23,327 nt of DNA from a virus: positions 1 through 23,327 of IMG/VR virus record IMGVR_UViG_3300037961_003782, one strand, 5' to 3'. The notes under the pieces are model-generated. The model saw only the letters and a program-made list of their open reading frames with translations, had not been told where the DNA came from and made no database searches. Positions 4,550 to 20,192 of the stretch are shown here, piece after piece. The translations under genes were made by a program, and so were the position numbers. Each line of letters begins with the position of its first letter. Within the stretch, counting starts at the first letter, position 1.

Positions 4550-7500
4550 ATGGCAAAACTACATAACGCCCTAACAGGAACAGATTTACACAATCCTAAA
4601 GGTATCGGAGTCGAGGGTACTAGTACGGTATTAGTTGTATCTCAATCAATTTACGCAGTGAGTGCAAGTGCGAGTATAGTACCTCACGCAGCTAACGAAT
4701 ACGACTTAGGAAGTGCTACAAGACCTTGGAAAGAATTATTTGTATCAACAAGTTCTATCAAATTTGTTACTTCTGACGGTGATGTCATATCAACAATGAA
4801 AGCTACAAAGGCTGGAGTTACCTTTACAAGTGGTTCTACAGGTGTATCAGCTGATGTTAGTGGTTCAACAATAAGTGGTTCAGCACTACATATAGAGGGT
4901 AGTGGAAAAATTACAGGTGATTTAACACTTGGTGGTAGTATCAATATAGGAGATGCCGATACCGATGATATCACACTTGGTGGTGAAATCAAATCAAATA
5001 TTGTTCCTGATGCAGATGCAACTTATGATTTGGGTAGTTCAACTAAAGGTTGGAATGATTTACACTTAGGTAGTGGTGGTGTAGTTAATTTTGATGGTGG
5101 AGATGTAACATTTACACATAGTTCTAATGATGTGGCTGTAGCTGGAGGAACTCTTACAGTAGATGGTGGTGTTAAAGTAGATAACATAACTATAGACGGA
5201 ACTGAAATAGATTTAAGTAGTGGTGATTTAACTATTGATGTTGCAGGTGATGTAATTATAGATGCAGATGGTGGAGATTTTAAAATTGATGATGCTGGAG
5301 TTTCATTGTTCGATGTATCCTCTACTAAGATTAGTGGTTCAGAAACCGCTACTGGCTCATTTGCTACAATAGAAACTGTTTCGAATGTAAGTTCTTCACA
5401 AAGTGCTACAGGTTCATTTGGTAGACTACAAACACATCAAGCTAATGCTAGTTTTGGTGGTAAAATATTAACGTTAGCTGGTAATCTAACCACATCAACG
5501 GGTGCTGGTACTATAGATTTTGCAGCTGATAAAACTTTAACTTTAAATGAAGATTTGACTGTTAGTGATGGACAGAATGTAGTATTAGCTGCAGCTGGAC
5601 AAGCAAACACTTTCACAATGAATGAATCATTCACGATTGGTGATGGAAATAGTGGTACACTAACATATAGTGGGGCATCTAAAACACTTACGGTTGAGGA
5701 TAACTCAACAATAAACCAAGATGTTACTTCAGATGCAAGTGTAACTTTTGGAGATGTAACTGCAGATGGTGGTGTGAGTATAGACAATATAACTATAGAT
5801 GGTACGGAGATTGATTTATCAAGTGGTGATTTAACCATAGACGTAGCTGGAGATTTGATTGTAGACGTTGATGGTGGAGACTTCAAGGTTGATGATGCTG
5901 GTGTACATTTATTCGATGTAACTGCAACAAAAGTTAGTGGTTCGGCTACATCAACTGGTTCGTTTGCTAGAATAGAGACAGATTCAACAATTAGTGGTTC
6001 ACAAGCATCTACTGGTTCATTTGGTAGATTACAAACTCATCAAGCTAACGCTAGTCTCGGAGGAAAGATAGTTACATTAGCTGGTAATCTAACAACCCAA
6101 AACAATAATTTAACAATCAATGCAGCAGATGCGGCTAGAACTCTAACGCTAACTGAAGATTTCACAATAGGTGGTGGAAATTCAGGAACGCTGACTTACA
6201 GTGGAGCAAGTAAAACTCTAACTGTAGCTGATACTACAACACTATCAGGTGGTGGTAACACACTTACATTAGCTGGTGATTTAACAACTCAAAATAACAA
6301 TGTTATTATTAACGCAGCTGATGCAGAAAGAACCCTTACTCTAACTGAAGATTTCACAATAGGTGGTGGACACGCTGGTACACTAACGTATAGTGCTGGT
6401 TCTAAAACACTTACAGTTGAGAATGATTCTGCTGTAAACCAAGATTTAACAAGTGATGCTAATCCAACTTTCGCAGGTGGTACATTAGGAAATATTCAAG
6501 TTGGTGTAACAGGCGATCAGGAGATAGATACTTCAAGTGGTAACTTGATATTAGATAGTGCTGGTGGAACGGTTCAAGTTACTGATACATTAGATGTTGA
6601 TGGAAACCAAACAATAAGTGGTAACTTAACAGCAGACCACGGTTCGAATAATTTCCAAATCACATCAACTAATGCAAGTGTTTTGGTTGAGGGTATAACG
6701 TTTACAGGAAACGATGTATTCATACCAGGTAATTTAACTGTATCGGGCTCACAAACAATAATTTCAAGTTCAGCTCTTGATGTTGTAGATATAAACATCA
6801 CGGTTGGAAGTGGTAGTGAATCAAGTGCGGCACTTGATGGTGCTGGATTAACATTTGGTAAAGCTGATATAGCTAGATTACAATATGACCATTCACTAAC
6901 AGCGATGAGTTCAAGTGTTGATTTCTACGCACCTAACGTTAGTGCTTCGATGGCTGGAACGGGTTCATTCGGAAGATTAGAAACTCATCAAGCTAATGCA
7001 GATTTAGGTGGTAAAATTGTTACTTTAGCTGGTAATCTAACAACTCAGAATAATAACCTAACTATTAATGCAGTTGATGCAGCTAGAACACTTACACTAA
7101 CTGAGGACTTTACAATAGGTGGTGGACACGCGGGTACTCTTACATTTAGTGCTGGCTCAAAAACCCTAACTGTAGAAAACACTTCAGCGGTTAACCAAGA
7201 CTTGACAAGTGATGCAAGTGTAACTTTCGGAGATGTAACAGCAGATGGTGGAGTTAGTATAGATAATATCACAATCGATGGAACTGAAATAGACTTGTCA
7301 TCAGGTGATTTGACAATCGATGTTGCAGGTGATGTTGAGATAAATGCTGATGGTGGTGATGTAATATTTAAAGATGATGCAGCAGATTTAGCTACTATTA
7401 ATGCAACTAAGGTTAGTGGTTCACAAGCATCTACTGGTTCATTTGGTAGGATTGAAACACATACTGCTGAGGTAAAAATAGGTGGTAATATTGTTACATT

Positions 7501-8125
7501 GGGAGGTGCTCTAACCACACAAAATAATAATGTAACTATAAATGCAGCAGGTGCGGCAAGAACTTTAACACTAAATGAATCTCTAACGGTTGGAGATGGT
7601 AATGATGGTACGGTTACATTTAGTGCATCTTCAAAAACATTAACGGTTGAAGATAATGCTACTGTAAGTCAAGATATGACTTCAGATGCTAACCCAACAT
7701 TCGCTGGTGTAACTGCTGGTAATGTTAAAGTTGGTGTTACTGCAGATGGTGAGATAGATACTTCAAGTGGTAACCTAACTATCGATTCAGCTGGTGGAAC
7801 TGTTACGATTGATGATGACTGTACGATATCTGGTACACTAACAGAATCCTCATCTGAAATATATAAGGAAAACATATCACAACTACAAAATGGATTGGAT
7901 AAAGTGTTGATGATGAGAGGTGTAGAGTTTGATTATAAATCAGATAAAAGTCATTCAATCGGTGTTGTAGCTGAAGAAATTTCTAAAGTAGAACCATATT
8001 TATTATCGGATGATAAAAAATCTGTTTCATATACTAGAATAGTTCCACTTTTGATTGAAGCAGTTAAATCATTAAACAATAAGGTTGAAGAACAAAACAA
8101 ATTAATTGAGAGTTTAAAGAATTAA
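4550..8125 (+). CDS. Long repeat tail fibre with C-terminal S74 chaperone (1191 aa)
   Basis: The start follows an AGGA ribosome site. Two 'YDLGS-x-T-x-x-W' modules lie at about residues 48-65 and 160-175. The shaft is built from two repeat types. Type A (DNITIDGTEIDLSSGDLTID and following residues) starts at residues 211, 412 and 905. Type B starts with 'TGSFGR-x-x-TH' and continues 'TLAGNLTTQNNN' and 'SKTLTVE'; it occurs four to five times. These suggest a long beta-structured, trimeric shaft. The last ~90 residues match the S74 intramolecular chaperone: Ser1101 and Lys1106 have the S-x4-K spacing of the self-cleavage dyad, then 'IGVVAEEISKVEP', 'VSYTRIVPLLIEAVKSL' and a coiled coil. In that family the C-terminal piece trimerises the fibre, then cuts itself off. 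The Ser-rich repeats are candidate acceptors for the sugar enzymes downstream (inference). Confidence 0.85.
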   Translation: MAKLHNALTGTDLHNPKGIGVEGTSTVLVVSQSIYAVSASASIVPHAANEYDLGSATRPWKELFVSTSSIKFVTSDGDVISTMKATKAGVTFTSGSTGVSADVSGSTISGSALHIEGSGKITGDLTLGGSINIGDADTDDITLGGEIKSNIVPDADATYDLGSSTKGWNDLHLGSGGVVNFDGGDVTFTHSSNDVAVAGGTLTVDGGVKVDNITIDGTEIDLSSGDLTIDVAGDVIIDADGGDFKIDDAGVSLFDVSSTKISGSETATGSFATIETVSNVSSSQSATGSFGRLQTHQANASFGGKILTLAGNLTTSTGAGTIDFAADKTLTLNEDLTVSDGQNVVLAAAGQANTFTMNESFTIGDGNSGTLTYSGASKTLTVEDNSTINQDVTSDASVTFGDVTADGGVSIDNITIDGTEIDLSSGDLTIDVAGDLIVDVDGGDFKVDDAGVHLFDVTATKVSGSATSTGSFARIETDSTISGSQASTGSFGRLQTHQANASLGGKIVTLAGNLTTQNNNLTINAADAARTLTLTEDFTIGGGNSGTLTYSGASKTLTVADTTTLSGGGNTLTLAGDLTTQNNNVIINAADAERTLTLTEDFTIGGGHAGTLTYSAGSKTLTVENDSAVNQDLTSDANPTFAGGTLGNIQVGVTGDQEIDTSSGNLILDSAGGTVQVTDTLDVDGNQTISGNLTADHGSNNFQITSTNASVLVEGITFTGNDVFIPGNLTVSGSQTIISSSALDVVDINITVGSGSESSAALDGAGLTFGKADIARLQYDHSLTAMSSSVDFYAPNVSASMAGTGSFGRLETHQANADLGGKIVTLAGNLTTQNNNLTINAVDAARTLTLTEDFTIGGGHAGTLTFSAGSKTLTVENTSAVNQDLTSDASVTFGDVTADGGVSIDNITIDGTEIDLSSGDLTIDVAGDVEINADGGDVIFKDDAADLATINATKVSGSQASTGSFGRIETHTAEVKIGGNIVTLGGALTTQNNNVTINAAGAARTLTLNESLTVGDGNDGTVTFSASSKTLTVEDNATVSQDMTSDANPTFAGVTAGNVKVGVTADGEIDTSSGNLTIDSAGGTVTIDDDCTISGTLTESSSEIYKENISQLQNGLDKVLMMRGVEFDYKSDKSHSIGVVAEEISKVEPYLLSDDKKSVSYTRIVPLLIEAVKSLNNKVEEQNKLIESLKN
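5180..7333 (+). repeat. Three copies of a 24-residue fibre repeat, same protein, different codons
   Basis: The copies at 5180-5251, 5783-5854 and 7262-7333 encode the same 24 residues (DNITIDGTEIDLSSGDLTID plus VAGD). Yet 14 of 24 codons differ between copies 1 and 2, and 12 of 24 between copies 1 and 3. Some are serine AGT-to-TCA switches, which cannot happen by one silent change. Flanking residues are partly conserved too. Confidence 0.9.
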
Positions 8126-9472
8126 ATGGCAGTATTACAATCATCACAGATTACTGGTAAATTTGCAGTTACAGGTTCTCGTGACCAAACTTTAGTTCTT
8201 AAAGATTATGATACCACACAGCGTAACTCTTTACAAGCTGCTGCAGGTGCTATGATTTTTAACAACACTACAAGTGGTGTAGAATTTTATACAGGTAATG
8301 CTTGGTCCTCTGCTATAGGTAGAACAGGACAAACAGGCTTAACGGGTGCTAAAGGTTCTCAAGGTAATCAAGGTGCCAAAGGTCCTGCTGGTGCTGATAG
8401 TAACCAAGCGGGTGCTAAAGGTCCTACTGGCGATAAAGGTCCTCAAGGAGCAGCTGGTCATCAGGGTTTTCAAGGTGCTACTGGTCCTACTGGGAACCAA
8501 GGTCCCCAAGGTCCTCGTGATGGTAATAAAGGTGGGCAAGGTCCTCAAGGTGTTCAAGGAGCTACTGGTCCTGCTAACAATCAAGGTGGCGCTCAAGGTA
8601 TTCAAGGTGCTAAGGGTCCTCAAGGAGCAGCTGGTCATCAAGGATTTCAAGGTGCTACTGGTCCAGCTGGACATCAAGGATTTCAAGGAGCAGGTGGTAA
8701 CCAAGGTCCTAAAGGTCCTCAAGGAGTTCAAGGTTCTCAAGGTGGTAAAGGTCCACAAGGTGTGCAAGGTGCAGGTGGTCCACAAGGTGTGCAAGGTGCA
8801 GGTGGTCCTCAAGGAGTTCAAGGAGCAGGTGGTCCTCAAGGAGTTCAAGGTGCACCTGGCTGGCCGTATCAAGGTTGTAGTACAACTGATTCACCTCAAT
8901 TTGCTTACATAGCAGTTGGACACGCACAAACAGGTGGTGGTGCTTATAGGTGTTGGATTGATGCTGATTATGCTGTACATCACTCTCAAATATATTCACC
9001 TAATAACTATGGTATGAATGGTAGAGCAAACAGCGCTTGTATGCAATTAAATAATTTAAGTGCGCAAACACAATTCGCTTTAAACAATAGTGGTAATGTT
9101 TACGCAGCTGGTAATAGATATTCTGATGAAAGAAAAAAGGTACAAATAGAACAATATACAGGAAGTTTAGGAGCAGATGGAAATGTATCAGGTTCTATGA
9201 TGGATAGATTATCCACCTTAAAACCAAAGAAATTTAGATTTGTAGGACAGACGGATGAAAAACCAAGACAAGTTGGTTTGATAGCACAAGATGTTAGATT
9301 ATCGTTTCCTGAATTGGTAGATGCTAGTAATGACGGAACAGGAAGTTTAGGTGCTGAAGATTATATGGCAGTAAATTATGTCGGAGTAAATGCAGTTTTA
9401 TTAGAAGCTGTAAGAGAAATAAAAGATACAATTAGTTCAATTTCAAGTCGTGTAGCGACTTTAGAGGGATAA
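8126..9472 (+). CDS. Collagen-like fibre protein A with S74 chaperone (448 aa)
   Basis: ATG follows the previous stop with no gap, and the ribosome site (GAGAG) lies inside the end of the fibre gene, so translation is probably coupled. Residues 1-64 form a small head ending in 'FYTGNAWSS', a motif common before phage fibre stalks. Residues ~65-246 are Gly-X-Y repeats rich in GPQ, GPK and GPT, with interruptions such as GPRDGNKG and GPANNQGGAQG. A 9-residue unit (GPQGVQGAG) is repeated four times at the distal end. A globular tip (~247-330) follows. Ser333 and Lys338 sit in 'SDERKK', the S74 self-cleavage motif, followed by 'VGLIAQDV' and 'AVNYVGVNAVLLEAV'. The likely role is a trimeric collagen-like tail fibre or adhesin. 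Bacterial-type collagen needs no hydroxyproline, and no hydroxylase is seen here. Confidence 0.85.
   Translation: MAVLQSSQITGKFAVTGSRDQTLVLKDYDTTQRNSLQAAAGAMIFNNTTSGVEFYTGNAWSSAIGRTGQTGLTGAKGSQGNQGAKGPAGADSNQAGAKGPTGDKGPQGAAGHQGFQGATGPTGNQGPQGPRDGNKGGQGPQGVQGATGPANNQGGAQGIQGAKGPQGAAGHQGFQGATGPAGHQGFQGAGGNQGPKGPQGVQGSQGGKGPQGVQGAGGPQGVQGAGGPQGVQGAGGPQGVQGAPGWPYQGCSTTDSPQFAYIAVGHAQTGGGAYRCWIDADYAVHHSQIYSPNNYGMNGRANSACMQLNNLSAQTQFALNNSGNVYAAGNRYSDERKKVQIEQYTGSLGADGNVSGSMMDRLSTLKPKKFRFVGQTDEKPRQVGLIAQDVRLSFPELVDASNDGTGSLGAEDYMAVNYVGVNAVLLEAVREIKDTISSISSRVATLEG
8750..8857 (+). repeat. 27-base tandem repeat in collagen stalk, 4 copies
   Basis: Four head-to-tail copies encode GPQGVQGAG; the last copy ends GAP instead. 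Copies 1-2 share 'caaggtgtgcaaggtgcagg', while copies 3-4 use 'caaggagttcaagg', so at least two duplication steps or later drift occurred. The unit is in frame (9 residues), so copy-number change would alter stalk length without breaking the protein. Confidence 0.85.
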
Positions 9473-9476
9473 AGAA

Positions 9477-10847
9477 ATGGCAGTATTACAAGCTACAGAA
9501 ATATCAGGCTCAGTAACTTTAGGTGCGCCATTAGTAGTACCAAATATAAGTAACACAGCTATTGGTAACCTATCAGGTACTGAAACATCTTTGGTGGTAC
9601 ATAGTTCAGGTGATGGAGATTTATACAGGCACAACGGAAGTAGTGTAGTTCGTGGATTTGGTATTCAAGGTACGATAGGTGCTAAAGGTAATACTGGTCC
9701 AGGTGGTGTTCAAGGTTCTACTGGTCCTCAAGGGGCTCAAGGATTTCACGGAACTACAGGTAACCAAGGTCCTCAAGGAAACCAAGGTCCACAAGGTCCA
9801 CGAGATGGTAACAAAGGTCCTACAGGAAACCAGGGGGTACAAGGAGCTACAGGTCCAGCAAATAATCAAGGTGGTGCTCAAGGTCCAGCTGGTCCTAAAG
9901 GTCCTACTGGCGCAGCGGGTCATCAAGGATTCCAAGGCGCTAAAGGTCCTACTGGTAATCAAGGTCCACAAGGTCCACGAGATGGTAATAAGGGTGGGCA
10001 AGGTAATCAAGGTCCTCGAAGTGGTGCTAAAGGTCCTCAAGGAGTACAAGGTGCGACTGGTAACCAAGGTCCTAAAGGTCCTACAGGCGGAGGTGGTAAC
10101 CAAGGTCCTAAAGGTCCTCAAGGAAATACAGGTGGTAAAGGTCCTCAAGGAGTTCAAGGTGCTAAAGGTCCTCAAGGTAGTCAAGGTCCTAAAGGTCCAC
10201 AAGGTCCTTCAAGTACAAATCAATCTATGAGTGGTGGTGATGCACCAAGCTTTTTAAGATTCGCTATCAATTCAAATAGTTGGCCATCAAGTGGTAGATT
10301 TCACGTAGCTAGAGCTGTAACTGATGCTGTTATTTTTGCAAACAGCACACCAAATGGTTTAAGGGTTGATGGTGGTGGTAATGGTGCTAATATTATTCAA
10401 TGTTTAGGTCCTATCCCATCACCTGCAAACAGACATTGGGTTACCAATATAGGACAATATTACCATTCAGGAAATCGTTCTTCTGATGCTAGAATTAAAA
10501 AAGATATTGAAGAGTATTCTGGTAGTATATTAAATAACATAAATCAATTTAAACCAAAAACTTTTTTATGGAATACCGCTCCTGATAATGATGTTTCACA
10601 TCAAAGATTAGGATTTATCGCACAAGATTATACAGCATCTAAATTTAGCGAGCTAGTAGATCGTGGTGAATTAAAACCAGGAGAAACTAAATCAACTGAC
10701 CAGAAAATAACCGATGGTAATAAAGAATACTCAGGAAGTTTAGGTTTCAATTATGATGGAGCAGCTGCTATACTGATAAAAGCTGTATCAGAGAGTAAAG
10801 CTATATTAGATGATTTAAATGCGAGAGTAACCACTTTAGAGGGATAG
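9477..10847 (+). CDS. Collagen-like fibre protein B with S74 chaperone (456 aa)
   Basis: The ribosome site (GAGGG) lies in the last codons of gene A; the gap is 4 bases. A short head (residues 1-61) precedes Gly-X-Y repeats over ~62-246, with two GPRDGNKG breaks and one GPANNQGGAQG break. The globular tip (~247-330) differs from those of A and C. Ser336 and Lys341 in 'SDARIK' carry the S74 dyad, followed by 'RLGFIAQDY' and 'AAAILIKAVSES', ending in a short coiled coil (LNARVTTLEG). It has a longer insert (residues ~396-415) in the chaperone than A. It is a tandem paralogue of A and C with almost the same stalk length. The likely role is a trimeric fibre; whether it pairs with itself or with A and C is unknown. 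Confidence 0.85.
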   Translation: MAVLQATEISGSVTLGAPLVVPNISNTAIGNLSGTETSLVVHSSGDGDLYRHNGSSVVRGFGIQGTIGAKGNTGPGGVQGSTGPQGAQGFHGTTGNQGPQGNQGPQGPRDGNKGPTGNQGVQGATGPANNQGGAQGPAGPKGPTGAAGHQGFQGAKGPTGNQGPQGPRDGNKGGQGNQGPRSGAKGPQGVQGATGNQGPKGPTGGGGNQGPKGPQGNTGGKGPQGVQGAKGPQGSQGPKGPQGPSSTNQSMSGGDAPSFLRFAINSNSWPSSGRFHVARAVTDAVIFANSTPNGLRVDGGGNGANIIQCLGPIPSPANRHWVTNIGQYYHSGNRSSDARIKKDIEEYSGSILNNINQFKPKTFLWNTAPDNDVSHQRLGFIAQDYTASKFSELVDRGELKPGETKSTDQKITDGNKEYSGSLGFNYDGAAAILIKAVSESKAILDDLNARVTTLEG

Positions 10848-10848
10848 T

Positions 10849-12204
10849 ATGGCGATATTAAGAAATAATAGTCAAATTGCAGGAATTACATTATCAGCTG
10901 ATGGAAACAGCGCTGGTTTAGTTGTTAATAAAGTAACTAATACCGAAATGGGTCAGATATCTTCACCCACAAAAGGTGCTATTATTTACAACACAACTGA
11001 TAATCAGTTCTATAGATATACAGGTAATGCTTGGAGTTCACAACAAGGTGGGCAGGGTGCTGTAGGTGCTACTGGTCCTCAAGGTGATAAAGGTCCTACA
11101 GGTGTTCAAGGGGCTCGAGGTAATCAAGGTCCTCAAGGTGTGCAAGGTGCTATTGGAGTACAAGGTGCTACAGGTCCTGCGAACAATCAAGGTGGTGCTC
11201 AAGGTCCAGCTGGTCCTAAAGGTCCTACTGGCGCAGCGGGTCATCAGGGTTTTCAAGGTGCTACTGGTCCTACGGGAAACCAAGGTCCCCAAGGTCCACG
11301 AGATGGTAATAAAGGTCCTACTGGAAATCAGGGGGTACAAGGTGCCACGGGTCCAGCGAACAATCAAGGCGGCTCTCAAGGTCCTCAAGGTCCTGCTAAC
11401 AATCAAGGTGGTGCTCAAGGTCCTAAAGGTCCTCAAGGAGTTCAAGGTGCAGGTGGAAATCAAGGTGCTCAAGGCGTTCAAGGTGCTACTGGAAATCAAG
11501 GTCCAACTGGTCCTGGTGGTAACCAAGGTCCTAAAGGTCCTCAAGGAAATCAAGGTCCTCAAGGAGGAGGTGGTAACCAAGGTCCAAGGGGAGTTTCACA
11601 ACCAAGTAATAATTTAGGAACAGCACCTCAAGGTAGTTACGTTAACTTTACTAGAATAGGTTTAAATGTAGGTCCAACAAATCAAGGTGTAGATGCTAGA
11701 GGTGGTAATAACGCTGCTATATTTAGTTCAAATAATTCCAACTCAGGTGGTGGTTGGAGACAATATGTTAACTCCAACCCATACTCTTGGCAATTTAGAG
11801 GTGACCAAAATCCAGGAGTTACTCTACACTATTGGAAGAGTAACGGACAATTCTATCATAAGGGTAATATATCATCAGACCAAAATTTGAAAAAAGAAAT
11901 TACACCTTACACTGCATCTGTATTAGAAACAAAACTTGGTGCTAAACATAGAGCTAGTAGTTTTATTATGATTGGAAATGAAGTTTCTAAATCAGAGTGG
12001 ACTGCTTCATCTACAGATAAAGCAGAGATTGGGTTTATCGCACAACACTATACTGCTAGTGCACCAGAGGTTGTAGATATGGTAGATACAGGCTCTTTAG
12101 GCATACAAGAAAGAGGTGTAACTGCTATGTTAACTAAAGCGTTTCAAGAAATATCAGAATCGCTGACTAACCTTAATAATAGGATAAAAACTTTAGAAGG
12201 ATAG
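10849..12204 (+). CDS. Collagen-like fibre protein C with S74 chaperone (451 aa)
   Basis: The start is one base after the stop of gene B, with the ribosome site (GAGGG) inside gene B. The head (residues 1-66) ends 'GAIIYNTTDNQFYRYTGNAW', clearly related to the head of A. Gly-X-Y repeats span ~67-249 with three GPANNQGG(A/S)QG breaks and one GPRDGNKG break. A globular tip (~250-340) is followed by Ser343 and Lys348 in 'SDQNLK' (S74 dyad), then 'IGFIAQHYTAS' and 'GVTAMLTKAFQEIS', ending in a coiled coil. The S74 core is more divergent than in A. The stalk DNA is a patchwork of stretches shared with B and with A (see findings). It probably ends this unit, since a promoter-like site follows. Confidence 0.85.
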   Translation: MAILRNNSQIAGITLSADGNSAGLVVNKVTNTEMGQISSPTKGAIIYNTTDNQFYRYTGNAWSSQQGGQGAVGATGPQGDKGPTGVQGARGNQGPQGVQGAIGVQGATGPANNQGGAQGPAGPKGPTGAAGHQGFQGATGPTGNQGPQGPRDGNKGPTGNQGVQGATGPANNQGGSQGPQGPANNQGGAQGPKGPQGVQGAGGNQGAQGVQGATGNQGPTGPGGNQGPKGPQGNQGPQGGGGNQGPRGVSQPSNNLGTAPQGSYVNFTRIGLNVGPTNQGVDARGGNNAAIFSSNNSNSGGGWRQYVNSNPYSWQFRGDQNPGVTLHYWKSNGQFYHKGNISSDQNLKKEITPYTASVLETKLGAKHRASSFIMIGNEVSKSEWTASSTDKAEIGFIAQHYTASAPEVVDMVDTGSLGIQERGVTAMLTKAFQEISESLTNLNNRIKTLEG

Positions 12205-12243: not shown

Positions 12244-14568
12244 ATGGTTGTATACGATAACGGGTTTTATAAAATACATCTTGATTTTAATGATTCTTTT
12301 AGGCTAAACTTCGATACATATAATTTAGATGATGAATATAGTATTGAAGTTAGATATGGAGAAAAAGAATCTGAGCTAGAATCAATAAATTTTGATTTAT
12401 CAGAATCACATACTATTAATGGAGTTAAGAAATATTATATTGATTGGCACATTGAAGTATATGAAAATGGTAATAAAATTGTAGATTATGATTTAGATTT
12501 AGAAGATAAAGATGTTTTAATAGATTTTATTTCTAAAAATTTGGGAGACACTACAATGTGGATTCCATATGTTGAGGAGTTTAGAAAAAAACATAATTGT
12601 AATCTATATTTGTTAACTGTAAATCATAATCTATTCTTAGATGCATATCCGTTTATAACGTTTGTTTCACCAAAAGATACAATTCCAAATTCTTTTGCTA
12701 GTTACTATATTGGTCCGATGGATATTCCAAGAACAAATGGAAATCAAGTTGATAGATATCTACCGTTAAAAAGAGACAAAACTCATTTTCAAGAAATTTG
12801 TAGTAGTATTTTAGGATTAAAACACAAACCTAACTTAAAAGCTCCGTTAAAAGTCTACAAAAATTTTAAAAAGGTTACTGATAAACCATATGTTGCTATA
12901 GCACCACAAGCTACTGCCAGAATAAAAACTTGGAATTATAATGGAACTGAGGGTTGGCAATTATTAGTAGATTATCTTAAAGAGAAAGGATATGAAGTTT
13001 TATATTGTTCTAAGGAATACGATGGTGAACGTGGTTTTAAAATTCCAAAAGGAGTTATAGTAAAAGATTCAGATACTTCTATAGAAGAAAGAGTATTTGA
13101 TATACATCACGCTGAGTTTTTTATAGGAATAAGTTCTGGTTTATATTGGGTTGCTCACGCTTTGGGAAAACGTTGTATTATGATTACAGGACACACACAT
13201 AAATACTCTGATGGACACGATGAAAAAACAGAACGTGTTTCACTAGAAAGTAACTCTGATATCTGTACTGGATGTTGGGGTGATATAAGTCTTGATTGGC
13301 ACTTTGATAGTTGGTATTGTCCAAAACATCAAGAGGATGATTTTACTAATGAAGCAGATATGAGTGAGAGTTCAAGAAAGTGGGAGTGTACAAAAAGAAT
13401 TACTCCTCAAATGGTATTTGATGCAGTTGATAGGGTAGAATCTTTTACAAAAAAGGTAAAGGTAAAACAAGAAAACTTTATAAGTTTAGGTATTAATTTA
13501 GGACACGATGCTAGCGCAGCTTTGTGCGTGAATGGTGAACTTATTACTAATATAGCACAAGAGAGAATATCAAGAATAAAACACGATAAGAATGAGAATG
13601 AAATTCCAAAGCAAGCTGTAAAATATGTTTTACATAATTCTAATATTGACTTACATCAAGTAGATAAAATTGTTTACAATGGAGCTGGAGAGGGTTGGGG
13701 AACAAGATATGTTAACTCTCAACTAAAAAAGTTTGAGGATGCTAATTGGGGGATAGGTAAAATTACTTATGGATTACACCATTTAATGCACGCTTATTCA
13801 GCATATTATTATTTTGGTGGTGAAGAGGGCACTTCTTTAATTGTTGATAATGGTGGAGATGTTGGTTATAGTTGGAGAACCTCAAGAGAAAACTTTAGAA
13901 ATACAAACAATACTGAAGCAGAAAATGCATCGATATATGGAATAAAAGGTAATAAATTTGAAACCTTATATAAACACAATCACCAGTTTCTTGAACAAGA
14001 AGAAGATAGATTGGGATTTTCTTTAGGTGCATTTTATGATATTGCTTGTTCAATAACAGGCATAGGAAATGATGGATTTTCTGCTGGTAAGTTGATGGGG
14101 CTTACATCATATGGCGATGATAGTAAGTATTATGAAAAACTCTTACAGAAGTATATGTATGAGGAGTGTATCGTTATAGATAATAATGATTTTTATATAC
14201 CAAGAAATTATCATAATCAAATGTTACCAACTTGGAATGTTAATGGATTTTACAATTATAGAAACACTTGGTATAATATTAATTTAGAAAATTCAGAATT
14301 TCAAGATAAGGCAAACTTTGCTCTTTGGGTTCAAAAAGAATTTGAGAGAGCTATTATGTTTTTAGTTAAGAAAGCAAAGATATTAAATCCAAGTGATAAC
14401 TTGTATTTAGCTGGTGGTTGTTTTCTAAATTCAATAGTTAACCAAAAGATAACCGATAGTAATATATTTAAGAATGTACACGTGATACCTGCAGCAGATG
14501 ATACAGGTATAGCTATAGGATGTGCATACTATGGTTATTGGAATCAATTTCTACCAAAAAATAATTGA
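12244..14568 (+). CDS. TibC-like O-heptosyltransferase fused to N-terminal half of O-carbamoyltransferase (774 aa)
   Basis: Residues ~1-410 match bacterial autotransporter heptosyltransferases (TibC/Aah, GT9-like). There is an N-terminal beta domain, then 'LIDFISKNLGDTTMW' with Asp102 in the family's catalytic LGDT position, 'PYVAIAPQATARIKTWN', 'FFIGISSGLYWVAHALG', and four cysteines (341, 344, 359, 382) spaced like the family's iron finger, ending 'CTKRITPQMV'. Such enzymes transfer heptose from ADP-heptose to serines of repetitive beta-helix adhesins. Residues ~413-774 match the N-terminal Kae1-like domain of NodU/TobZ carbamoyltransferases: 'GINLGHDASAAL' (416-427), the metal-binding-type 'HHLMHAYSAYY' (512-522), 'LYLAGGCFLNSIVNQ' (720-734) and 'PAADDTGIAIGCAYYGY'. 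The usual C-terminal half is absent and lies in the next gene. The fusion is real within one open frame. Its target, protein or glycan, is inferred. Confidence 0.85.
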   Translation: MVVYDNGFYKIHLDFNDSFRLNFDTYNLDDEYSIEVRYGEKESELESINFDLSESHTINGVKKYYIDWHIEVYENGNKIVDYDLDLEDKDVLIDFISKNLGDTTMWIPYVEEFRKKHNCNLYLLTVNHNLFLDAYPFITFVSPKDTIPNSFASYYIGPMDIPRTNGNQVDRYLPLKRDKTHFQEICSSILGLKHKPNLKAPLKVYKNFKKVTDKPYVAIAPQATARIKTWNYNGTEGWQLLVDYLKEKGYEVLYCSKEYDGERGFKIPKGVIVKDSDTSIEERVFDIHHAEFFIGISSGLYWVAHALGKRCIMITGHTHKYSDGHDEKTERVSLESNSDICTGCWGDISLDWHFDSWYCPKHQEDDFTNEADMSESSRKWECTKRITPQMVFDAVDRVESFTKKVKVKQENFISLGINLGHDASAALCVNGELITNIAQERISRIKHDKNENEIPKQAVKYVLHNSNIDLHQVDKIVYNGAGEGWGTRYVNSQLKKFEDANWGIGKITYGLHHLMHAYSAYYYFGGEEGTSLIVDNGGDVGYSWRTSRENFRNTNNTEAENASIYGIKGNKFETLYKHNHQFLEQEEDRLGFSLGAFYDIACSITGIGNDGFSAGKLMGLTSYGDDSKYYEKLLQKYMYEECIVIDNNDFYIPRNYHNQMLPTWNVNGFYNYRNTWYNINLENSEFQDKANFALWVQKEFERAIMFLVKKAKILNPSDNLYLAGGCFLNSIVNQKITDSNIFKNVHVIPAADDTGIAIGCAYYGYWNQFLPKNN

Positions 14569-14586
14569 TTCTAAAATCTTTGATAA

Positions 14587-14594
14587 TATTTATA
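14587..14594 (+). promoter_or_regulatory. Candidate late promoter TATTTATA inside sugar cassette
   Basis: The octamer lies in the 51-base gap between the two halves of the carbamoyltransferase, 25 bases before the ATG at 14620. A small TAGG-AAA-CCTA hairpin just before the start overlaps the ribosome site. Its presence argues that the gene split is a real arrangement and not a sequencing error. Confidence 0.45.
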
Positions 14595-14619
14595 TAGTAA
14601 TGGTTATAGGAAACCTAAT

Positions 14620-16131
14620 ATGAAAAAAGATGCTTACTTAGGAATGGTTTACTCTGATGAACAGATTATGGGTGCTATTCAAAAATATTGTGGTAATACA
14701 ACCGATCGTTTTGGTGGTATTAATATGACATACGAAAAGTGTTCAGAAAAAACATTGTATAAAAAAGTAGCTAAACTTATTGCAGAACAAAATATAGTTG
14801 GATGGTTTCAAGGTGCATCTGAAACAGGTCCTCGTGCATTGGGTAATAGAAGTATTTTGGCTGATGCTAGAAGTTTTAGAATGAAAGATAGAATAAACGA
14901 TTCGGTAAAACATAGAGAATGGTATCGCCCTTTTGCACCAAGTTGTTTAGAAGAAGAAGCTGATAAGTATTTTACACATAGTACAGATAGTCCTCATATG
15001 TTATTGATATCCGATGTAAAGCACGAGTGGAGAAGTAGATTACCAGCTATTACACATATAGATGGAACCGCCAGATTACAAACAGTATCTAAAAAAACTA
15101 ATCCAAGATATTGGAAACTTATAAACGAATTTAAAAATATAACAGGCATACCAGTTGTTCTAAACACATCTTTTAATGATAATGCACAACCCATCGTAGA
15201 ATCACCTGAAAATGCTATAGATTGTTTTGAAAATACTCAAATGGATTACTTAGTGATGGGTAATTACATTATAAGTAAGATGGATAGAAAATGGTATACC
15301 GATTACGTAAAGCCAAAAGATAGAAAGAGGAGAGTGGGCGTAGTTTGTTTTAGTTACAATCGTTCAGAGTACCTTGAGAAAACTCTCGATAGTTTAGTAA
15401 AAACAATGGATAAACGAGATAAACTATTTTTACTTGAACAATCATCCGATGCTGAAGAAAAGAAAAAGTGTTTGGAATTAACTTATAAGGCTGCTGAAAA
15501 AATAGATATTCAAATTATGGATATGCCGTATAATCTTGGATGTAGGTTAGGAACTAATAGAGTTTGGGAAACAGGATTCTTTGATGATTGTGAATATTAT
15601 ATGAATATAGACCACGATATGGTAATCAGAGAACCTCTAACTACAGGTGTAGAAAAGTTAGATTCATCACCTTACATTTGGATGGTTTCATATCATAATA
15701 GTCCTGAACACGATGTTAAAAATGTAGATGGTAATTGGGTGTTAAAAGACCATACACGTGGTTGTCATATGATGTTAAGAATAAAAGATTTTTTAGATAT
15801 GATGCCTATATGGATGCATCATAATGGTGGACACGATAATTTAAATTGGCACGGTGGTTTAGATTGGTACTTAATGGATTACTCAGAGGTAGCTCCTGGT
15901 CCTGATATAAAAGAGATAATAGCAGTTTTGCCTGGCGCAAGTGAACATATAGGAAGAGATTCAGCTTGGCAAGGAGATTACGATGATGAGTATAGTGATG
16001 AAGTACAAAATTTATTTTTTAAAGCACAGAATGTAGAAGAGTTGTTAGAGTTTTACAGACCCGATAAGGTTTACGATGATGAATCTTATTGGTATGAGGA
16101 GGTGTATGCGGATATTATTAACAGGAGGTGA
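14620..16131 (+). CDS. C-terminal half of O-carbamoyltransferase fused to GT-A glycosyltransferase (503 aa)
   Basis: The start follows a weak TAGGA site. Residues ~1-222 match the C-terminal domain of NodU/TobZ-type carbamoyltransferases: 'DAYLGMVYSDEQI', 'GWFQGASETGPRALGNRS' (61-78), 'KDRINDSVKHREWYRPFAP', 'ITHIDGTARLQTV', 'GIPVVLNTSFNDNAQPIV' and 'MDYLVMGNYII'. This is the half missing from the preceding gene; together they give ~585 residues, about the normal length of the single-chain enzyme. Residues ~238-503 resemble a GT2-type GT-A glycosyltransferase: a starting strand 'VGVVCFSYNRSEYLEKTLDSL', a DxD motif (Asp331-His-Asp333) after 'YYMNI', and 'GGLDWYLMDY' later. Donor and acceptor cannot be read. 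The two fused halves could join both sugar transferases in one complex (inference). The last 26 bases overlap the start of the epimerase gene. Confidence 0.85.
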   Translation: MKKDAYLGMVYSDEQIMGAIQKYCGNTTDRFGGINMTYEKCSEKTLYKKVAKLIAEQNIVGWFQGASETGPRALGNRSILADARSFRMKDRINDSVKHREWYRPFAPSCLEEEADKYFTHSTDSPHMLLISDVKHEWRSRLPAITHIDGTARLQTVSKKTNPRYWKLINEFKNITGIPVVLNTSFNDNAQPIVESPENAIDCFENTQMDYLVMGNYIISKMDRKWYTDYVKPKDRKRRVGVVCFSYNRSEYLEKTLDSLVKTMDKRDKLFLLEQSSDAEEKKKCLELTYKAAEKIDIQIMDMPYNLGCRLGTNRVWETGFFDDCEYYMNIDHDMVIREPLTTGVEKLDSSPYIWMVSYHNSPEHDVKNVDGNWVLKDHTRGCHMMLRIKDFLDMMPIWMHHNGGHDNLNWHGGLDWYLMDYSEVAPGPDIKEIIAVLPGASEHIGRDSAWQGDYDDEYSDEVQNLFFKAQNVEELLEFYRPDKVYDDESYWYEEVYADIINRR

Positions 16132-16939
16132 GGGGTTTATAGGTAACGCTTTAAAAAAGTCTCTACTTAAAAAAGCTACACAAGTAAGTTCTATAGAACA
16201 AAAGTATTGTGAGTACAAAGGTTACGAAACAACTTTGTTTAAAGCTGTAGAAGATTGTGATATCATATATCACGTTGGTGCTATATCAGACACAATGGAA
16301 AAAGATGTTAATAAAATGATGTACTACAATGTTGAGTTTAGTAAAGTCTTATTTGATTTAGCTAGTATCCTAAATAAAAAAGTAGTATATTCATCATCTG
16401 CAGCTTGTTATGGTACTGATGGTGTTCCAAGTAACTTATATGGTTGGAGTAAATATATAGCAGAAATATATGGTGTATCCACTGTAAAAGATTTTATAGC
16501 CTTACGTTACTTCAATGTTTATGGTAAGGGTGAATCACATAAAGGAAAAATGGCATCAGTTGCTTATCAGGCTATGAATATGGTGAGTGGAAATAAGGAT
16601 AAAGAATTATCAAGGTATGCACAAAAAGAAAAGTTTAGATTATTTCCAGGCAATCCAAAAAGAGATTTTGTTTACATTGATGATGTGGTATCAGCGAATG
16701 TAAGATGTTTGGATGATGTACCAGCTGGAGTTTACGATGTTGGTTTGGGAAAGAGTAATAGGTTTGAAACTGTGTTAAAAACATTAGGGATTGATTATTA
16801 CTATCACAATAAAGATATGATACCGAAAGGTTATCAGTTTGAAACAAAAGCGAATAAAAATAAATTTTTACCAAAGTGGAAACCTAAATTTACTTTGGAA
16901 AAAGGATTAATCGATTATAAAAATAAGTTAGGAGTCTAA
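16106..16939 (+). CDS. hldD: ADP-L-glycero-D-manno-heptose 6-epimerase-like protein (277 aa)
   Basis: I place the start at 16106, giving MRILLTGGEGFIG. A strong AGGAGGTG site (16097-16104) lies inside the preceding gene, and the Rossmann strand begins at once. An in-frame ATG at 16076 would add ten residues not expected in the family. HldD converts ADP-D-glycero- to ADP-L-glycero-D-manno-heptose with bound NADP. Seen here are the glycine-rich nucleotide loop (residues 6-13), 'SSSAACYG' (96-103), catalytic Tyr112-x3-Lys116, and HldD hallmarks 'RYFNVYGKGESHKGKMASVA', 'KRDFVYIDDVV' and 'PKGYQFETKANKNKF'. At 277 residues it is shorter than E. coli HldD (310). Overlapping the glycosyltransferase gene and following a TibC-like enzyme, it probably supplies the donor sugar. 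A related epimerase specificity remains possible. Confidence 0.8.
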   Translation: MRILLTGGEGFIGNALKKSLLKKATQVSSIEQKYCEYKGYETTLFKAVEDCDIIYHVGAISDTMEKDVNKMMYYNVEFSKVLFDLASILNKKVVYSSSAACYGTDGVPSNLYGWSKYIAEIYGVSTVKDFIALRYFNVYGKGESHKGKMASVAYQAMNMVSGNKDKELSRYAQKEKFRLFPGNPKRDFVYIDDVVSANVRCLDDVPAGVYDVGLGKSNRFETVLKTLGIDYYYHNKDMIPKGYQFETKANKNKFLPKWKPKFTLEKGLIDYKNKLGV

Positions 16940-17343: not shown

Positions 17344-19995
17344 ATGGCTGAACGAATTGTTAGTCCAGGTGTGTTTACAAGGGAGCGAGACTTATCCTTT
17401 TTACCTACGGGTGTTCAAGGGATAGGGGCAGTAGTTGTCGGAGCTACTGAAACAGGTCCTGCATTCACACCAACGGTTGTAACTTCCGTAACAGAATTCA
17501 ATGAGTTATTCGGAGATAACACAGAATCAAATATTAATTACTATGTACCTTTAGCTGCTAGAGAATACTTTAATGGTGGAGCTACTTCACTTACTGTAGT
17601 TCGTACATTACACTTAGATGGATACACCTATGGTAGTGGTCAAGTAAACTACTTGATGGCATCAAGCTCAATAGCTTACGCAGGCACTTTAAAGGAAAGT
17701 ACAGGATCACTTTCTGCCGCTGCAGGATTAGCTGCAGTAGCTGGAGATATAGATAACTCTTTCACTTTATCAGGCTCAGCAGGTATCCCTCAGGTATTAG
17801 CAGTTCTTGCACCAGCAGAGGGAACACATAATGCTACCAATATAAGTGCTGTTGCATCAACACAATATAGTGCTAGTAAATTCTCATTCAGTATGGCTAA
17901 TGGTGCATTTACTGATAATGATAATAAACTATCTTTTAATACAGGTGGTGCTACAGGTGGATATAGTTACATAGAAGATTTCTTTTCTAAGAATCCAAGA
18001 GCTACTAAGAATGGTGATAATAGCACGGCGTACTATTACTTACATAGTCATTTCCAATCTTCATCTGCTCACAGACTTAATTTTGACGGAGTTGTATCTG
18101 GATCACATCAAATAGTAAACTTAACAGGTTCATTGAACTTTACAAGTGGTTCTACTGGATTCAGTAATACAGGACAAGCTAACACTTGGACTGGTAATAA
18201 AGAGTTTAGTGCAGCTAGAACACCATATATCCAATCACAATTAATAGGTGGTGGACGTTCTAACTTGTTTAGAGTTTACACTCAAGGACACGGTACTCAA
18301 ATGAATAAGAAGTACTTTGTTGGTATTAGTGATATTAAGCCTGCTAGTGAAATAGCAAACTCAGATTATGGTACATTCTCAATACAAATCTTTGCAGCAC
18401 CAAAGGATGAGATGGATGATGACAGAAAAGCTCCTACCGCTAATAAGCAATTAGTACAAACAATTTCAAATTGTTCTATGGATCCTCTTTCTTCAGACTT
18501 CGTTGCAAGAAAGGTTGGTGATAAGTTTTTCACAACCGATTCAGCTGGTAAAGTATCTGAGTATGGGCAATATCCGCTAACACAAAATTATGTTCGTATT
18601 GGTGATTATGATGATTTAATTAATGATAACGTTCCAAAAGCAGCAGTTCCAATGGGATTTGATGCATTGAACATTACAGTTACACCACCAAGTTTGCATA
18701 TGACTAAACCTCAAGGTGGAGTGATGAGCTCAAGTCTTGCAACTGTACCTACTGCTAGTTTCAATAGACAGCAGTTAAGTAAGAAAGACGGACAACTAAG
18801 TAAGAATCCTGAGTACTATGGATTTAACTTCCACGACAATGATAACTTACCTTACTTCGCACCAGTTCCTTACGGAACAAGTGGTGCTTCTACAGGTAAC
18901 AACGTTACTATGTCTCTTGAAGATATGCTTGGAAGTGCAGATGTTGGTACGGTACAAGATACAAGCACATTCGCAAACGCAAGTACTAAAATTACTTTAG
19001 GGAATTCACACATCTCACAAAGGAGATTTGCAGTACCTATGCAGTGGGGATTTGATGGAAACAATCCACATACAGCAGTAAATACTGGTGTGGATATAAC
19101 TGGTACTAACACATTTGGATTTAATATTTCAAGTACATCAGCAGCTGGATATACTGCATTTAAGAGAGCAGTTGACACGGTAGCTGATCCTGAAATAGTA
19201 GATTTCAATCTATTGTTAATGCCTGGTGTAAATCATAACCAACACTCAGCTATCACAAACTATGCTATATCAAAAGTAGAGGATAGAGCAGATGCATTCT
19301 TTATCCTAGACCCATCAGCATATGGTGATTCAATATCAACCACAAAGACTACAGTACAAAATCTTGATACTAACTACGCAGGTTGTTACTACCCGTGGGT
19401 TAGAATGCAAGGTAATATTGGAAGTCAAGTTTGGGTTCCACCATCAGTTGTAATCGCACACGCTATCGCTAATAATGATGCTGTAGCAAGTGAGTGGTTC
19501 GCACCTGCTGGATTGAACAGAGGTGGTTTGTCAATGGTGGCTTCGGCTGAAACAAAGTTGAGAGGTCCTGAAAGGGATGATTTGTACGACAATCGTATCA
19601 ATCCTATTGCACACTTTACTAACATAGGGTATGCAGTATTCGGACAGAAAACACTTCAATCTGCTACATCAGCTCTTGACAGAATTAACGTAAGAAGATT
19701 GTTAATCAACGTTAAGAAGTTTGTGGCATCAAGTTCAAGATACTTAGTATTCGAACAAAATGATTTGACTACAAGAAACAGATTCCTAAACATTGTGAAT
19801 CCATATCTTGAATCAATTCAGCAAGCAAGAGGATTAAGTGCATTTAAAGTTGTTATGGATGATACCAATAACACACCAGATGTAGTTGATAGAAATCAGC
19901 TTGTTGGACAAATACTATTACAACCTACGAGAACTGCAGAGTTCATCGTATTAGATTTTGTTGTATTACCTACTGGGGCAGCATTTCCTGAGTAA
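17344..19995 (+). CDS. gp18: Contractile tail sheath protein, gp18-like (883 aa)
   Basis: The start is supported by TAGGAGA 9 bases upstream. The N-terminus 'ERIVSPGVFTRERD' followed by 'IGAVVVGATETGPAFTPTVV' and 'FNELFGD' is typical of T4-like sheath proteins. The C-terminal part from ~residue 767 is the most conserved: 'GQKTLQSATSALDRINVRRL', 'VFEQND', 'IVNPYLESIQQARGL', 'DVVDRNQLVGQILLQPTRTA' and 'FIVLDFVVLPTG'. This region forms the inner ring that contacts the tube and neighbouring subunits. T4 gp18 has 659 residues, so ~220 extra residues are probably inserted in the middle (Ser/Thr/Gly-rich, ~100-350), where surface-exposed domains sit in this family. It polymerises around the tail tube and contracts on infection. 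A strong terminator follows. Confidence 0.93.
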   Translation: MAERIVSPGVFTRERDLSFLPTGVQGIGAVVVGATETGPAFTPTVVTSVTEFNELFGDNTESNINYYVPLAAREYFNGGATSLTVVRTLHLDGYTYGSGQVNYLMASSSIAYAGTLKESTGSLSAAAGLAAVAGDIDNSFTLSGSAGIPQVLAVLAPAEGTHNATNISAVASTQYSASKFSFSMANGAFTDNDNKLSFNTGGATGGYSYIEDFFSKNPRATKNGDNSTAYYYLHSHFQSSSAHRLNFDGVVSGSHQIVNLTGSLNFTSGSTGFSNTGQANTWTGNKEFSAARTPYIQSQLIGGGRSNLFRVYTQGHGTQMNKKYFVGISDIKPASEIANSDYGTFSIQIFAAPKDEMDDDRKAPTANKQLVQTISNCSMDPLSSDFVARKVGDKFFTTDSAGKVSEYGQYPLTQNYVRIGDYDDLINDNVPKAAVPMGFDALNITVTPPSLHMTKPQGGVMSSSLATVPTASFNRQQLSKKDGQLSKNPEYYGFNFHDNDNLPYFAPVPYGTSGASTGNNVTMSLEDMLGSADVGTVQDTSTFANASTKITLGNSHISQRRFAVPMQWGFDGNNPHTAVNTGVDITGTNTFGFNISSTSAAGYTAFKRAVDTVADPEIVDFNLLLMPGVNHNQHSAITNYAISKVEDRADAFFILDPSAYGDSISTTKTTVQNLDTNYAGCYYPWVRMQGNIGSQVWVPPSVVIAHAIANNDAVASEWFAPAGLNRGGLSMVASAETKLRGPERDDLYDNRINPIAHFTNIGYAVFGQKTLQSATSALDRINVRRLLINVKKFVASSSRYLVFEQNDLTTRNRFLNIVNPYLESIQQARGLSAFKVVMDDTNNTPDVVDRNQLVGQILLQPTRTAEFIVLDFVVLPTGAAFPE

Positions 19996-20023
19996 TAACT
20001 TAATCTAAATTAATGTGTGCAAG

Positions 20024-20048
20024 AAACCCCTTTAACGAGGGGTTTTTT
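20024..20048 (+). terminator. Rho-independent terminator after the sheath gene
   Basis: AAACCCCT (20024-20031) pairs with AGGGGTTT (20038-20045) around the loop TTAACG, giving an 8-bp perfect stem. It runs straight into a T-rich tail (TTTTTTGTTTTATTT). It lies 29 bases after the sheath stop. It should end or attenuate sheath transcription and separate it from the tube gene, which has its own promoter-like octamer. Confidence 0.85.
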
Positions 20049-20075
20049 GTTTTATTTACTATTTATTTTATGAGT

Positions 20076-20119
20076 GATAGTAAGATAGTAAAACTATGAA
20101 AAAACTATGAAAAACTATC
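20076..20119 (+). repeat. Short repeat cluster between sheath and tube genes
   Basis: GATAGT occurs at 20076-20081 and 20084-20089. ACTATG or ACTATC follows three times (about 20093, 20104 and 20114), spaced 10-11 bases, the last (ACTATC) being the exact complement of GATAGT. The ~10.5-base spacing places them on one face of the helix, as for a protein-binding site. It could also be low-complexity AT sequence. The rest of the 197-base gap holds the terminator and the tube promoter-like octamer; no gene is seen. Confidence 0.35.
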
Positions 20120-20153
20120 AAGGTACAAATAACTGAAATTGTTAGATAGCTTA

Positions 20154-20161
20154 TATTTATA
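20154..20161 (+). promoter_or_regulatory. Candidate late promoter TATTTATA before tail tube gene
   Basis: TATTTATAGATAGA lies 31 bases before the tube ATG and matches the site at 2931 over 13 bases (TATTTATAGATAG). It follows a strong terminator, so the tube gene needs a promoter here. This makes it the best-supported site of the series. Confidence 0.6.
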
Positions 20162-20192
20162 GATAGAAGTAAATATAATTTGGAGATAAGTA

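Follow-up and report, generated by a model that had tools for sequence, protein, structure and literature searches.

The window, by which we mean the whole stretch of viral DNA that was analysed (23,327 nt), carries three consecutive open reading frames on the plus strand, listed at 12244-14568, 14620-16131 and 16076-16939, with tail-fibre genes on one side and a tail-sheath gene on the other. The third of them starts at 16106, after a GAGGAGG at 16096-16102, and not at 16076. The nearest fibre gene ends 39 nt upstream of ORF1. A nearest-DNA search of the phage collection with the window returned no match. The features to which we refer below are:

4550..8125, plus strand: fibre of 1191 aa whose long repeats are rich in Ser/Thr, with an S74 domain; acceptor in the alternative
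8126..9472, plus strand: collagen-like (Gly-X-Y) tail fibre with a C-terminal Peptidase_S74 chaperone, candidate acceptor
9477..10847, plus strand: second collagen-like tail fibre with an S74 domain, candidate acceptor
10849..12204, plus strand: third of the collagen-like tail fibres, with a sub-threshold S74 match, candidate acceptor
12244..14568, plus strand: ORF1 (774 aa), a fusion of two parts: a protein O-heptosyltransferase of the BAHT (TibC/Aah) type and, after it, the Kae1-like N-terminal half of an O-carbamoyltransferase
12262..13437, plus strand: BAHT domain (ORF1 residues 7-398), made up of a TibC-type beta-barrel at the N terminus and a GT-B catalytic domain
13264..13389, plus strand: iron finger (cysteines 341, 344, 359 and 382 of ORF1)
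13477..14538, plus strand: Kae1-like (Carbam_trans_N) carbamoyl-transfer domain (ORF1 residues 412-765) with HHLMHA, LIVDNGGD and AADDTG
14569..14619, plus strand: deletion scar of 51 nt, 3'-end remnant of a second Kae1-like gene
14620..16131, plus strand: ORF2 (503 aa), YrdC-like C-terminal carbamoyltransferase half fused to a GT-A glycosyltransferase
14770..15279, plus strand: YrdC-like (Carbam_trans_C) carbamoyl-adenylate domain (ORF2 residues 51-220) with GPRALGNRS
15322..15987, plus strand: GT-A glycosyltransferase domain (ORF2 residues 235-456) with metal motif DHD (331-333)
16106..16939, plus strand: ORF3 (277 aa from its true start), HldD-like ADP-heptose 6-epimerase with YGWSK and SHKGKMASVA
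17344..19995, plus strand: tail sheath, a gene upstream of which BAHT genes are found repeatedly in viruses

By sequence and modelled fold the N-terminal part of ORF1 is a genuine BAHT (TibC/Aah) domain, with heptosyl transfer as its predicted activity. Residues 7-398 match the profile TIGR04414 (hepto_Aah_TibC) with 217.8 bits, above the curated equivalog cut-off of 200 bits, and ORF1 finds TibC in the PDB with E=1e-39. Structure comparison of the ORF1 model (range 1-409) gave Z 38.2 with TibC (2.5 A over 370 residues) as against Z 21.3 with WaaF and 18.9 with WaaC (about 18-21 overall for LPS heptosyltransferases). The sequence match to the N-terminal barrel (TibC_1st) is below cut-off and the barrel is present by the fold of the model. 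An earlier note on this DNA had proposed a TibC/Aah-like O-heptosyltransferase domain, to be given up if residues 1-410 resembled ordinary LPS heptosyltransferases lacking the iron finger; these residues match TibC far better, the finger is present, and the LGD motif and cysteines 341, 344, 359 and 382 are where that note had placed them. The motif and the cysteines are invariant across phage relatives, and the four-cysteine finger was found in 73 of 73 viral clusters. In TibC, D110 is the catalytic Asp and T226, K230, R286 and W305 form the sugar site; all five are kept in ORF1 as D102, T224, K228, R283 and W302. At the stereoselectivity position (TibC P300, Aah S294) ORF1 has S297; this is the Aah-type residue, with which ADP-L,D-heptose is accepted, in keeping with the adjoining HldD-like gene.

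The carbamoyltransferase is present as two halves. ORF1 residues 510-761 match Carbam_trans_N (PF02543; 96.7 bits, cut-off 24) with intact HHxxHA, VD and ADD motifs, which we take to be the metal site, and the model of the Kae1-like domain resembles GdmN (Z 22.1), NovN (Z 21.3) and TobZ (Z 20.4). ORF2 residues 51-220 match Carbam_trans_C (PF16861; 247.6 bits, cut-off 27; E=6e-74), an assignment made from the sequence since the ORF2 model is of low quality beyond its GT-A core (mean pLDDT 44.7). Scores with the NodU equivalog NF041651 were 47.5 and 137.9 bits, below its cut-off of 1000. The NodU/TobZ-type carbamoyltransferase previously proposed is thus borne out in both domains and in its motifs but not as a single gene: the two domains lie in separate ORFs with a gap of 51 nt between them. 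The HHxxHA, GPRALGNRS and DxD (here DHD) motifs noted before are all present.

The gap is in-frame, with a stop at its opening and more stops inside. It corresponds to the 3' end of a second Kae1-like gene that is intact in two related phage loci, L009 and L010; none of 500 shuffles reached the alignment score, and homology to that gene begins within the last codons of ORF1. We conclude that deletion of the second Kae1-like gene left the carbamoyltransferase divided between two genes. Readthrough or a sequencing error was considered as the source of the split and rejected, given the several stops, the deleted-gene remnant that explains it and the same split in an independent contig, L002, with near-identical genes. 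Comparison of the window with L002 shows purifying selection on all three genes, with dN/dS of 0.10 for ORF1 (over the shared part, which takes in the last portion of the BAHT domain and the entire Kae1-like half), 0.06 for ORF2 and 0.04 for ORF3. The shared split and these low values argue that the cassette is neither chance nor an assembly artefact.

The second domain of ORF2 has a clear GT-A fold (residues 235-445, Z 16.8) and both Asp of its DHD motif (331 and 333) are invariant. The glycosyltransferase proposed earlier therefore holds by fold and DxD motif, while its sequence match is weak: Pfam GT2 (PF00535) gave E=0.005 and 17.1 bits, below the gathering score of 23.3. The homologous domain of another phage locus, L013, reached 43.9 bits with the same profile.

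For ORF3 the best family is the heptose 6-epimerase HldD (TIGR02197) at 169.7 bits against a cut-off of 274.6; the homologue in L009 scored 184.7 bits. ORF3 stands far from the HldD proteins with solved structures, and the segment past its first Rossmann motif is shortened, yet Y122, K126 and K156, in YGxSK and HKGxMASVA, align with those proteins and are presumably the catalytic Tyr and Lys motifs of HldD. The motif claim rests on the PDB matches. The suggestion of an HldD-like ADP-heptose epimerase accordingly keeps its family and hallmark motifs with a score below the curated cut-off. Neither HldE nor GmhA was found on the window's own 44-kb record, and the HldE adenylyltransferase domain was found in none of 16 BAHT-bearing virus records, so that the donor in these viruses must be supplied by the host. 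Two further BAHT phages do encode GmhA, one of them with a score above cut-off.

Phage BAHT domains are common. Scanning with a single protein found one viral locus only; alignment scans, used instead, found more than 570 IMG/VR stretches, in which tail genes are the usual neighbours and Ser/Thr-rich Gly-X-Y fibres are frequently close by. A tail sheath gene of the same orientation follows the BAHT gene, 0.1-7.7 kb downstream, in 33 clusters. We came across no published account of these phage enzymes. BAHT and carbamoyltransferase domains share one polypeptide in L009/L010, L011 and L013, of which L011 and L013 hold both carbamoyltransferase halves, and in L172/L175, on a separate branch of the tree, they are encoded by overlapping genes. 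In L009, too, a YrdC-like half is encoded separately, and the reading frames of this locus are uninterrupted. These fusions lend support to the earlier suggestion that heptosylation and carbamoylation act together; the deletion behind the split, the linkage in other phages and the abundance of phage BAHT domains are additions to what that note contained.

Known BAHT substrates are beta-helix autotransporters and not collagens. NCBIfam profiles for autotransporters and acceptor repeats had no match in seven upstream proteins, and a strand-loop-strand repeat pattern of our own making gave no hits in viral loci, nor in bacterial BAHT loci, and is hence uninformative. The X and Y positions of Gly-X-Y fibres near viral BAHT genes are about 71% Ser/Thr. 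In the window's fibres, unlike the GTS repeats of relatives, Thr fills only about 17% of the Y positions and Ser is scarce. One cultured phage with a BAHT gene, Microcystis phage Mel-JY01, encodes GTS-repeat proteins. Against a first control of the tail-tube loci nearest the window, none with BAHT, Gly-X-Y fibres were enriched (16/23 versus 4/27, p=1e-4), in sets that differ in lineage. In a control matched for tail lineage, the strict criterion gave 6 of 25 BAHT-positive and 0 of 9 negative loci (p=0.16) and the soft one 8/25 and 0/9 (p=0.08), most of the positive loci having no Gly-X-Y fibre within the stretch examined. BAHT genes adjoin Gly-X-Y genes 12 times where 6.5 were expected (P=0.017). 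Gly-X-Y genes occur in 41 of 62 viral and 3 of 28 bacterial BAHT loci of at least 12 kb, a comparison in which virus and host effects are mixed. The link between BAHT enzymes and collagen-like fibres is suggestive. The proposal that the phage modifies its own fibres thus has gene position on its side, with a collagen association significant only in the loosely matched control.

Our preferred reading, held with moderate confidence, is that the cassette directs O-heptosylation, extension of the glycan and its O-carbamoylation, with the fibres of the phage itself as the target; starting from the domain identities, intact active-site residues, purifying selection and recurrent linkage and fusion observed above, we infer the reactions, their order, the sugars, the acceptor and the benefit. 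On this view the three genes, placed among the tail genes, would serve as a cassette for glycosylating virion proteins. ADP-D,D-heptose from the host would be converted to ADP-L,D-heptose by the HldD-like enzyme, and the BAHT domain would attach the heptose to the hydroxyl of Ser or Thr in fibre proteins, with the three collagen-like fibres just upstream as the likeliest acceptors, or else the large repeat fibre. The GT-A domain would add one more sugar. The YrdC-like half would make carbamoyl-adenylate and the Kae1-like half transfer the carbamoyl, so that the two-chain enzyme would place an O-carbamoyl group on the fibre glycan. With each half tied to a glycosyltransferase, glycosylation and capping may take place together on the fibre. 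The benefit could be fibre stiffness or hydration, protease protection or adsorption. The carbamoylated heptose glycan of the earlier note agrees with the enzyme families, and because a GT-A enzyme belongs to the set the product may exceed a single carbamoyl-heptose.

We think it unlikely that the same enzymes instead modify the host surface, either an autotransporter-like protein or LPS, for example to block superinfection. BAHT enzymes of bacteria do act on surface adhesins, and phage glycosyltransferases that alter host surface sugars are described in a passage of PMC12619734. The cassette has however a structural-gene position between fibre and sheath genes that is kept in many relatives, and ORF1 matches protein-acting BAHT enzymes far better than LPS enzymes. 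Quite improbable in our judgement is that heptosylation is real and the carbamoyltransferase has been non-functional since the deletion. One Kae1-like gene was indeed lost, and the two halves that are left belong to different proteins, but the dN/dS of 0.10 across the whole Kae1-like half and of 0.06 in ORF2, the intact catalytic motifs and the open genes of L009, with its own separate YrdC-like half, all speak for function. There is similarly little chance that the BAHT-like domain uses another ADP-activated sugar and ORF3 has another specificity, giving a glycan without heptose: the sub-threshold score of ORF3, its distance from solved HldD proteins and the HldE not found in BAHT phages would fit, whereas the heptose and ADP contacts of TibC are conserved in ORF1, the HKGxMASVA and YGWSK signatures are intact and two BAHT phages encode GmhA. 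That the carbamoyltransferase and GT-A domain belong to a DNA-hypermodification pathway, the BAHT fusion being incidental, is very improbable: phage-type carbamoyltransferases acting on 5-hydroxymethylcytosine exist (PMC8670742), but W62, G75 and R77 of ORF2 are the TobZ residues at positions 408, 421 and 423, by which DNA-modifying carbamoyltransferases are told apart and where the DNA enzyme has I, C and T (PMC8670742; aligned by eye), the fusion or overlap with a protein glycosyltransferase is recurrent and the cassette sits among tail genes.

Taken as a fibre-glycosylation cassette, the locus has relatives among several known systems. It shares with TibC (4rap, 4rb4) and Aah of E. coli a common fold, the iron finger, the catalytic Asp and the ADP-heptose contacts, but is phage-encoded and fused to a carbamoyltransferase half, and no beta-helix autotransporter was found beside its BAHT domain, collagen-like fibres adjoining instead. 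TobZ, NodU, GdmN, VtdB, NovN and Pseudomonas WapO have the same Kae1-like and YrdC-like domains with intact motifs, whereas here the enzyme is divided over two genes, and a glycosyltransferase domain is joined to either half. The LPS of Pseudomonas is known to contain O-carbamoyl heptose, with WapO as the putative carbamoyltransferase (PMC8005017). The likeness of ORF3 to HldD (ADP-glyceromanno-heptose 6-epimerase) lies in the best-scoring family and the two shared motifs, with a score under the curated cut-off. Homologous Nol-like carbamoyltransferases (PHROG 1601) occur in marine cyanophages, but among the matches listed for ORF1 no cyanophage match covers the BAHT domain. Virion proteins are likewise glycosylated in mycobacteriophages (Freeman et al. 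2023); in the passage of PMC12619734 that cites this work the capsid and tail tube are the parts modified, and that passage does not mention BAHT enzymes or carbamoyltransferases. The mimivirus collagen glucosyltransferase and Bacillus BclA, a glycosylated bacterial collagen-like protein (PMC8968730), are precedents for sugar on Gly-X-Y proteins as proposed here; in mimivirus hydroxylysine is modified, whereas we predict Ser/Thr heptosylation of BAHT type with carbamoylation.

BAHT enzymes are known as modifiers of bacterial adhesins. More tentatively, and as a possibility rather than an expectation, they may in phages form a widespread system that hyper-glycosylates Ser/Thr-rich collagen-like tail fibres into mucin-like structures, in the lineage of the window with additional O-carbamoylation by a carbamoyltransferase divided between two glycosyltransferase fusions. 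The more than 570 viral stretches that encode them, often by tail genes, would extend virion glycosylation by a new class. They would also point to candidate enzymes acting on Ser/Thr-rich Gly-X-Y fibres in phages, and would provide a compact set with which carbamoylated protein glycans could be made. Should the fibres be glycosylated, the prediction of host range and adsorption from fibre sequence alone would need to be revised.

The window, covering bases 1-23327 of a 44,153-base IMG/VR virus record, holds the tail region of a phage with a contractile tail, and three cassette genes sit between its fibre genes and its sheath gene:

8126-12204, collagen-like fibres with Peptidase_S74 matches, that of the third fibre below the cut-off
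12244-14568, plus strand, ORF1 (774 aa)
14620-16131, plus strand, ORF2 (503 aa)
16106-16939, plus strand, ORF3
17344-21652, tail sheath, tube and baseplate hub genes

A short N run immediately past the window's end at 23327 is a scaffold gap within a tail-region gene. At the end of the record an open TonB-dependent receptor gene with CarboxypepD_reg and Plug domains (L008, a further stretch of the record, 2973-4151; record 42973-44151) adjoins a B12-type ribonucleotide reductase. This gene could be phage-borne or a host junction, and is a possible hint to the host.

The earlier note had read the N-terminal domain of ORF1 as a TibC/Aah-like O-heptosyltransferase (BAHT), and comparison with LPS heptosyltransferases bore this out. 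The curated BAHT model TIGR04414 matches residues 7-398 at 217.8 bits (cut-off 200), LPS heptosyltransferase models reach at most 19.9 bits and all four iron-finger cysteines are present. TibC was matched at E=1e-39 in a PDB sequence search, and the predicted ORF1 structure (mean pLDDT 71.3) aligned to TibC with a Z score of 38.2 across 370 residues, versus 21.3 for WaaF and 18.9 for WaaC. In TibC, Asp110 is the candidate catalytic base and Arg286, Trp305, Thr226 and Lys230 bind the sugar (PMC4358343). Their window equivalents in the PDB alignment are D102, R283, W302, T224 and K228; R283 is invariant across the three fused BAHT domains compared and the others across four phage BAHT domains. 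Pro300 limits TibC to ADP-D,D-heptose while Ser294 of Aah permits both heptose epimers (PMC4358343). The window and its fused relatives carry a serine here (Ser297), consistent with the adjacent HldD-like gene.

Sequence and structure identify the remaining half of ORF1 as the Kae1-like part of a TobZ-type carbamoyltransferase (Z 20-22 versus GdmN, NovN, VtdB and TobZ), and the YrdC-like half forms the N-terminal part of ORF2 (E=6e-74). The carbamoyltransferase had thus been rightly named, its gene structure now being corrected to halves in two ORFs. The predicted GT-A glycosyltransferase is the C-terminal part of ORF2, with a weak sequence match and a clear fold (Z 16.8 versus a Leptospira glycosyltransferase, about 16 versus TarP and TarS). 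ORF3 keeps its proposed HldD family likeness at a score under the curated cut-off, and its start moves to 16106. Against L002, an independent contig with near-identical genes, dN/dS is 0.10 for part of ORF1, 0.06 for ORF2 and 0.04 for ORF3, so the epimerase is being kept, as are both carbamoyltransferase halves. That the carbamoyltransferase serves to modify DNA is unlikely because the window is TobZ-like at all three MetaGPA-defined positions that separate cytosine carbamoyltransferases.

Heptose as the donor is supported by GmhA, which two other BAHT phages encode. HldE domain II was absent from 16 of 16 BAHT-bearing records examined, and ADP-heptose must therefore come from the host. In the 636-kb phage LR756504.1 (L278, 430182-430640) GmhA exceeds its curated cut-off and is encoded 27 kb away from the BAHT gene.

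Two loci with the same gene order and an ORF1 57% identical to the window's (L009, L010) hold an extra, separate Kae1-like gene in the ORF1-ORF2 interval. Judged from sequence, this gene was deleted from the window lineage and left a scar, because the window's 51-nt gap aligns to its 3' end; the homology begins within the final codons of ORF1 (CAAAAAATAATTGATTCT onward), and 0 of 500 gap shuffles match the observed score. In two relatives with sister cassettes (L011, L013) the BAHT, Kae1-like and YrdC-like domains lie within a single protein, and the fused BAHT domains of the window, L009, L011 and L013 form one tree group with 97% support. On a different branch, in L172 and L175, the BAHT gene carries a fused group-1 glycosyltransferase and overlaps the gene of a complete carbamoyltransferase; a sheath gene follows downstream. 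There are therefore at least two separate physical linkages of BAHT and carbamoyltransferase; a carbamoyltransferase also lies inside the BAHT locus in L061, L173/L174 and L177. Further enzymes are encoded in the sister cassettes (L013 5722-11658, L011 15099-20969): a protein with a sulfotransferase domain in L013, a second, divergent carbamoyltransferase, and a protein combining GT2 with DUF5672. The glycan could accordingly be larger, or sulfated.

At least 571 stretches encode BAHT relatives in a viral scan. Grouping the fetched loci at 90% identity gives 73 clusters, each of which has the iron finger and a GD motif, and nine of nine further viral BAHT proteins score 213-335 bits on TIGR04414. 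Among phage records of the annotated collection only three distinct sequences match the BAHT domain, from Microcystis phage Mel-JY01 and two huge uncultured phages, one of which is present as two equal-length records.

Known BAHT acceptors are beta-helix autotransporters. At viral BAHT loci, collagen-like (Gly-X-Y) repeat genes are striking neighbours, often of GTS, GSS or GTN repeats, with Ser/Thr at about 71% of X and Y positions. Three such BAHT-linked genes are mostly GTS/GTN/GSS:

L058 11711-20965, 861 uninterrupted Gly-X-Y triplets (the maximum)
L177 11683-20976, 677 uninterrupted triplets
L040 5421-13979, 695 uninterrupted triplets

The association was significant with a loosely matched control (16/23 versus 4/27) and not with a lineage-matched one (6/25 versus 0/9, p=0.16; under a softer criterion 8/25 versus 0/9, p=0.08). 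In the window itself the fibre repeats are of G-P-Q/G-A-T type, and Thr occupies about 17% of their Y positions. For these two reasons collagen-like fibres as the acceptor are no more than an inference. A 1191-aa fibre at 4550-8125, with long Ser/Thr-rich repeats (TLTEDFTIGGGNSGTLTY...), might be beta-helical and an alternative acceptor. The collagen-like fibres could possibly be hydroxylated by 2OG-Fe(II) oxygenases, whose genes occur in the same phage as the window (L007, another stretch of its record, 9587-10237; record 29587-30237) and adjoining the L011 cassette (7044-9271).

Virion glycosylation is already known in mycobacteriophages, according to PMC12619734, as are O-carbamoyl heptose in Pseudomonas LPS (PMC8005017), a glycosylated Bacillus collagen-like protein (BclA, PMC8968730) and a glycosylated collagen-like protein in mimivirus. 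Full-text searches of openly licensed papers, judged mainly by titles and abstracts, turned up no account of a phage BAHT or of such a cassette.

The Mel-JY01 gene (L003 3403-7086; PP395634.1, WWT39291.1) is labelled methyltransferase FkbM, carries its BAHT domain at the C-terminus and lies near GTS-repeat genes. Taken together, the system would be BAHT protein heptosylation moved into phages and joined to a carbamoyltransferase. For the whole chain of steps we lean towards glycosylation of the phage's own fibres as the most likely function, and the BAHT gene of Mel-JY01 provides a culturable test case.
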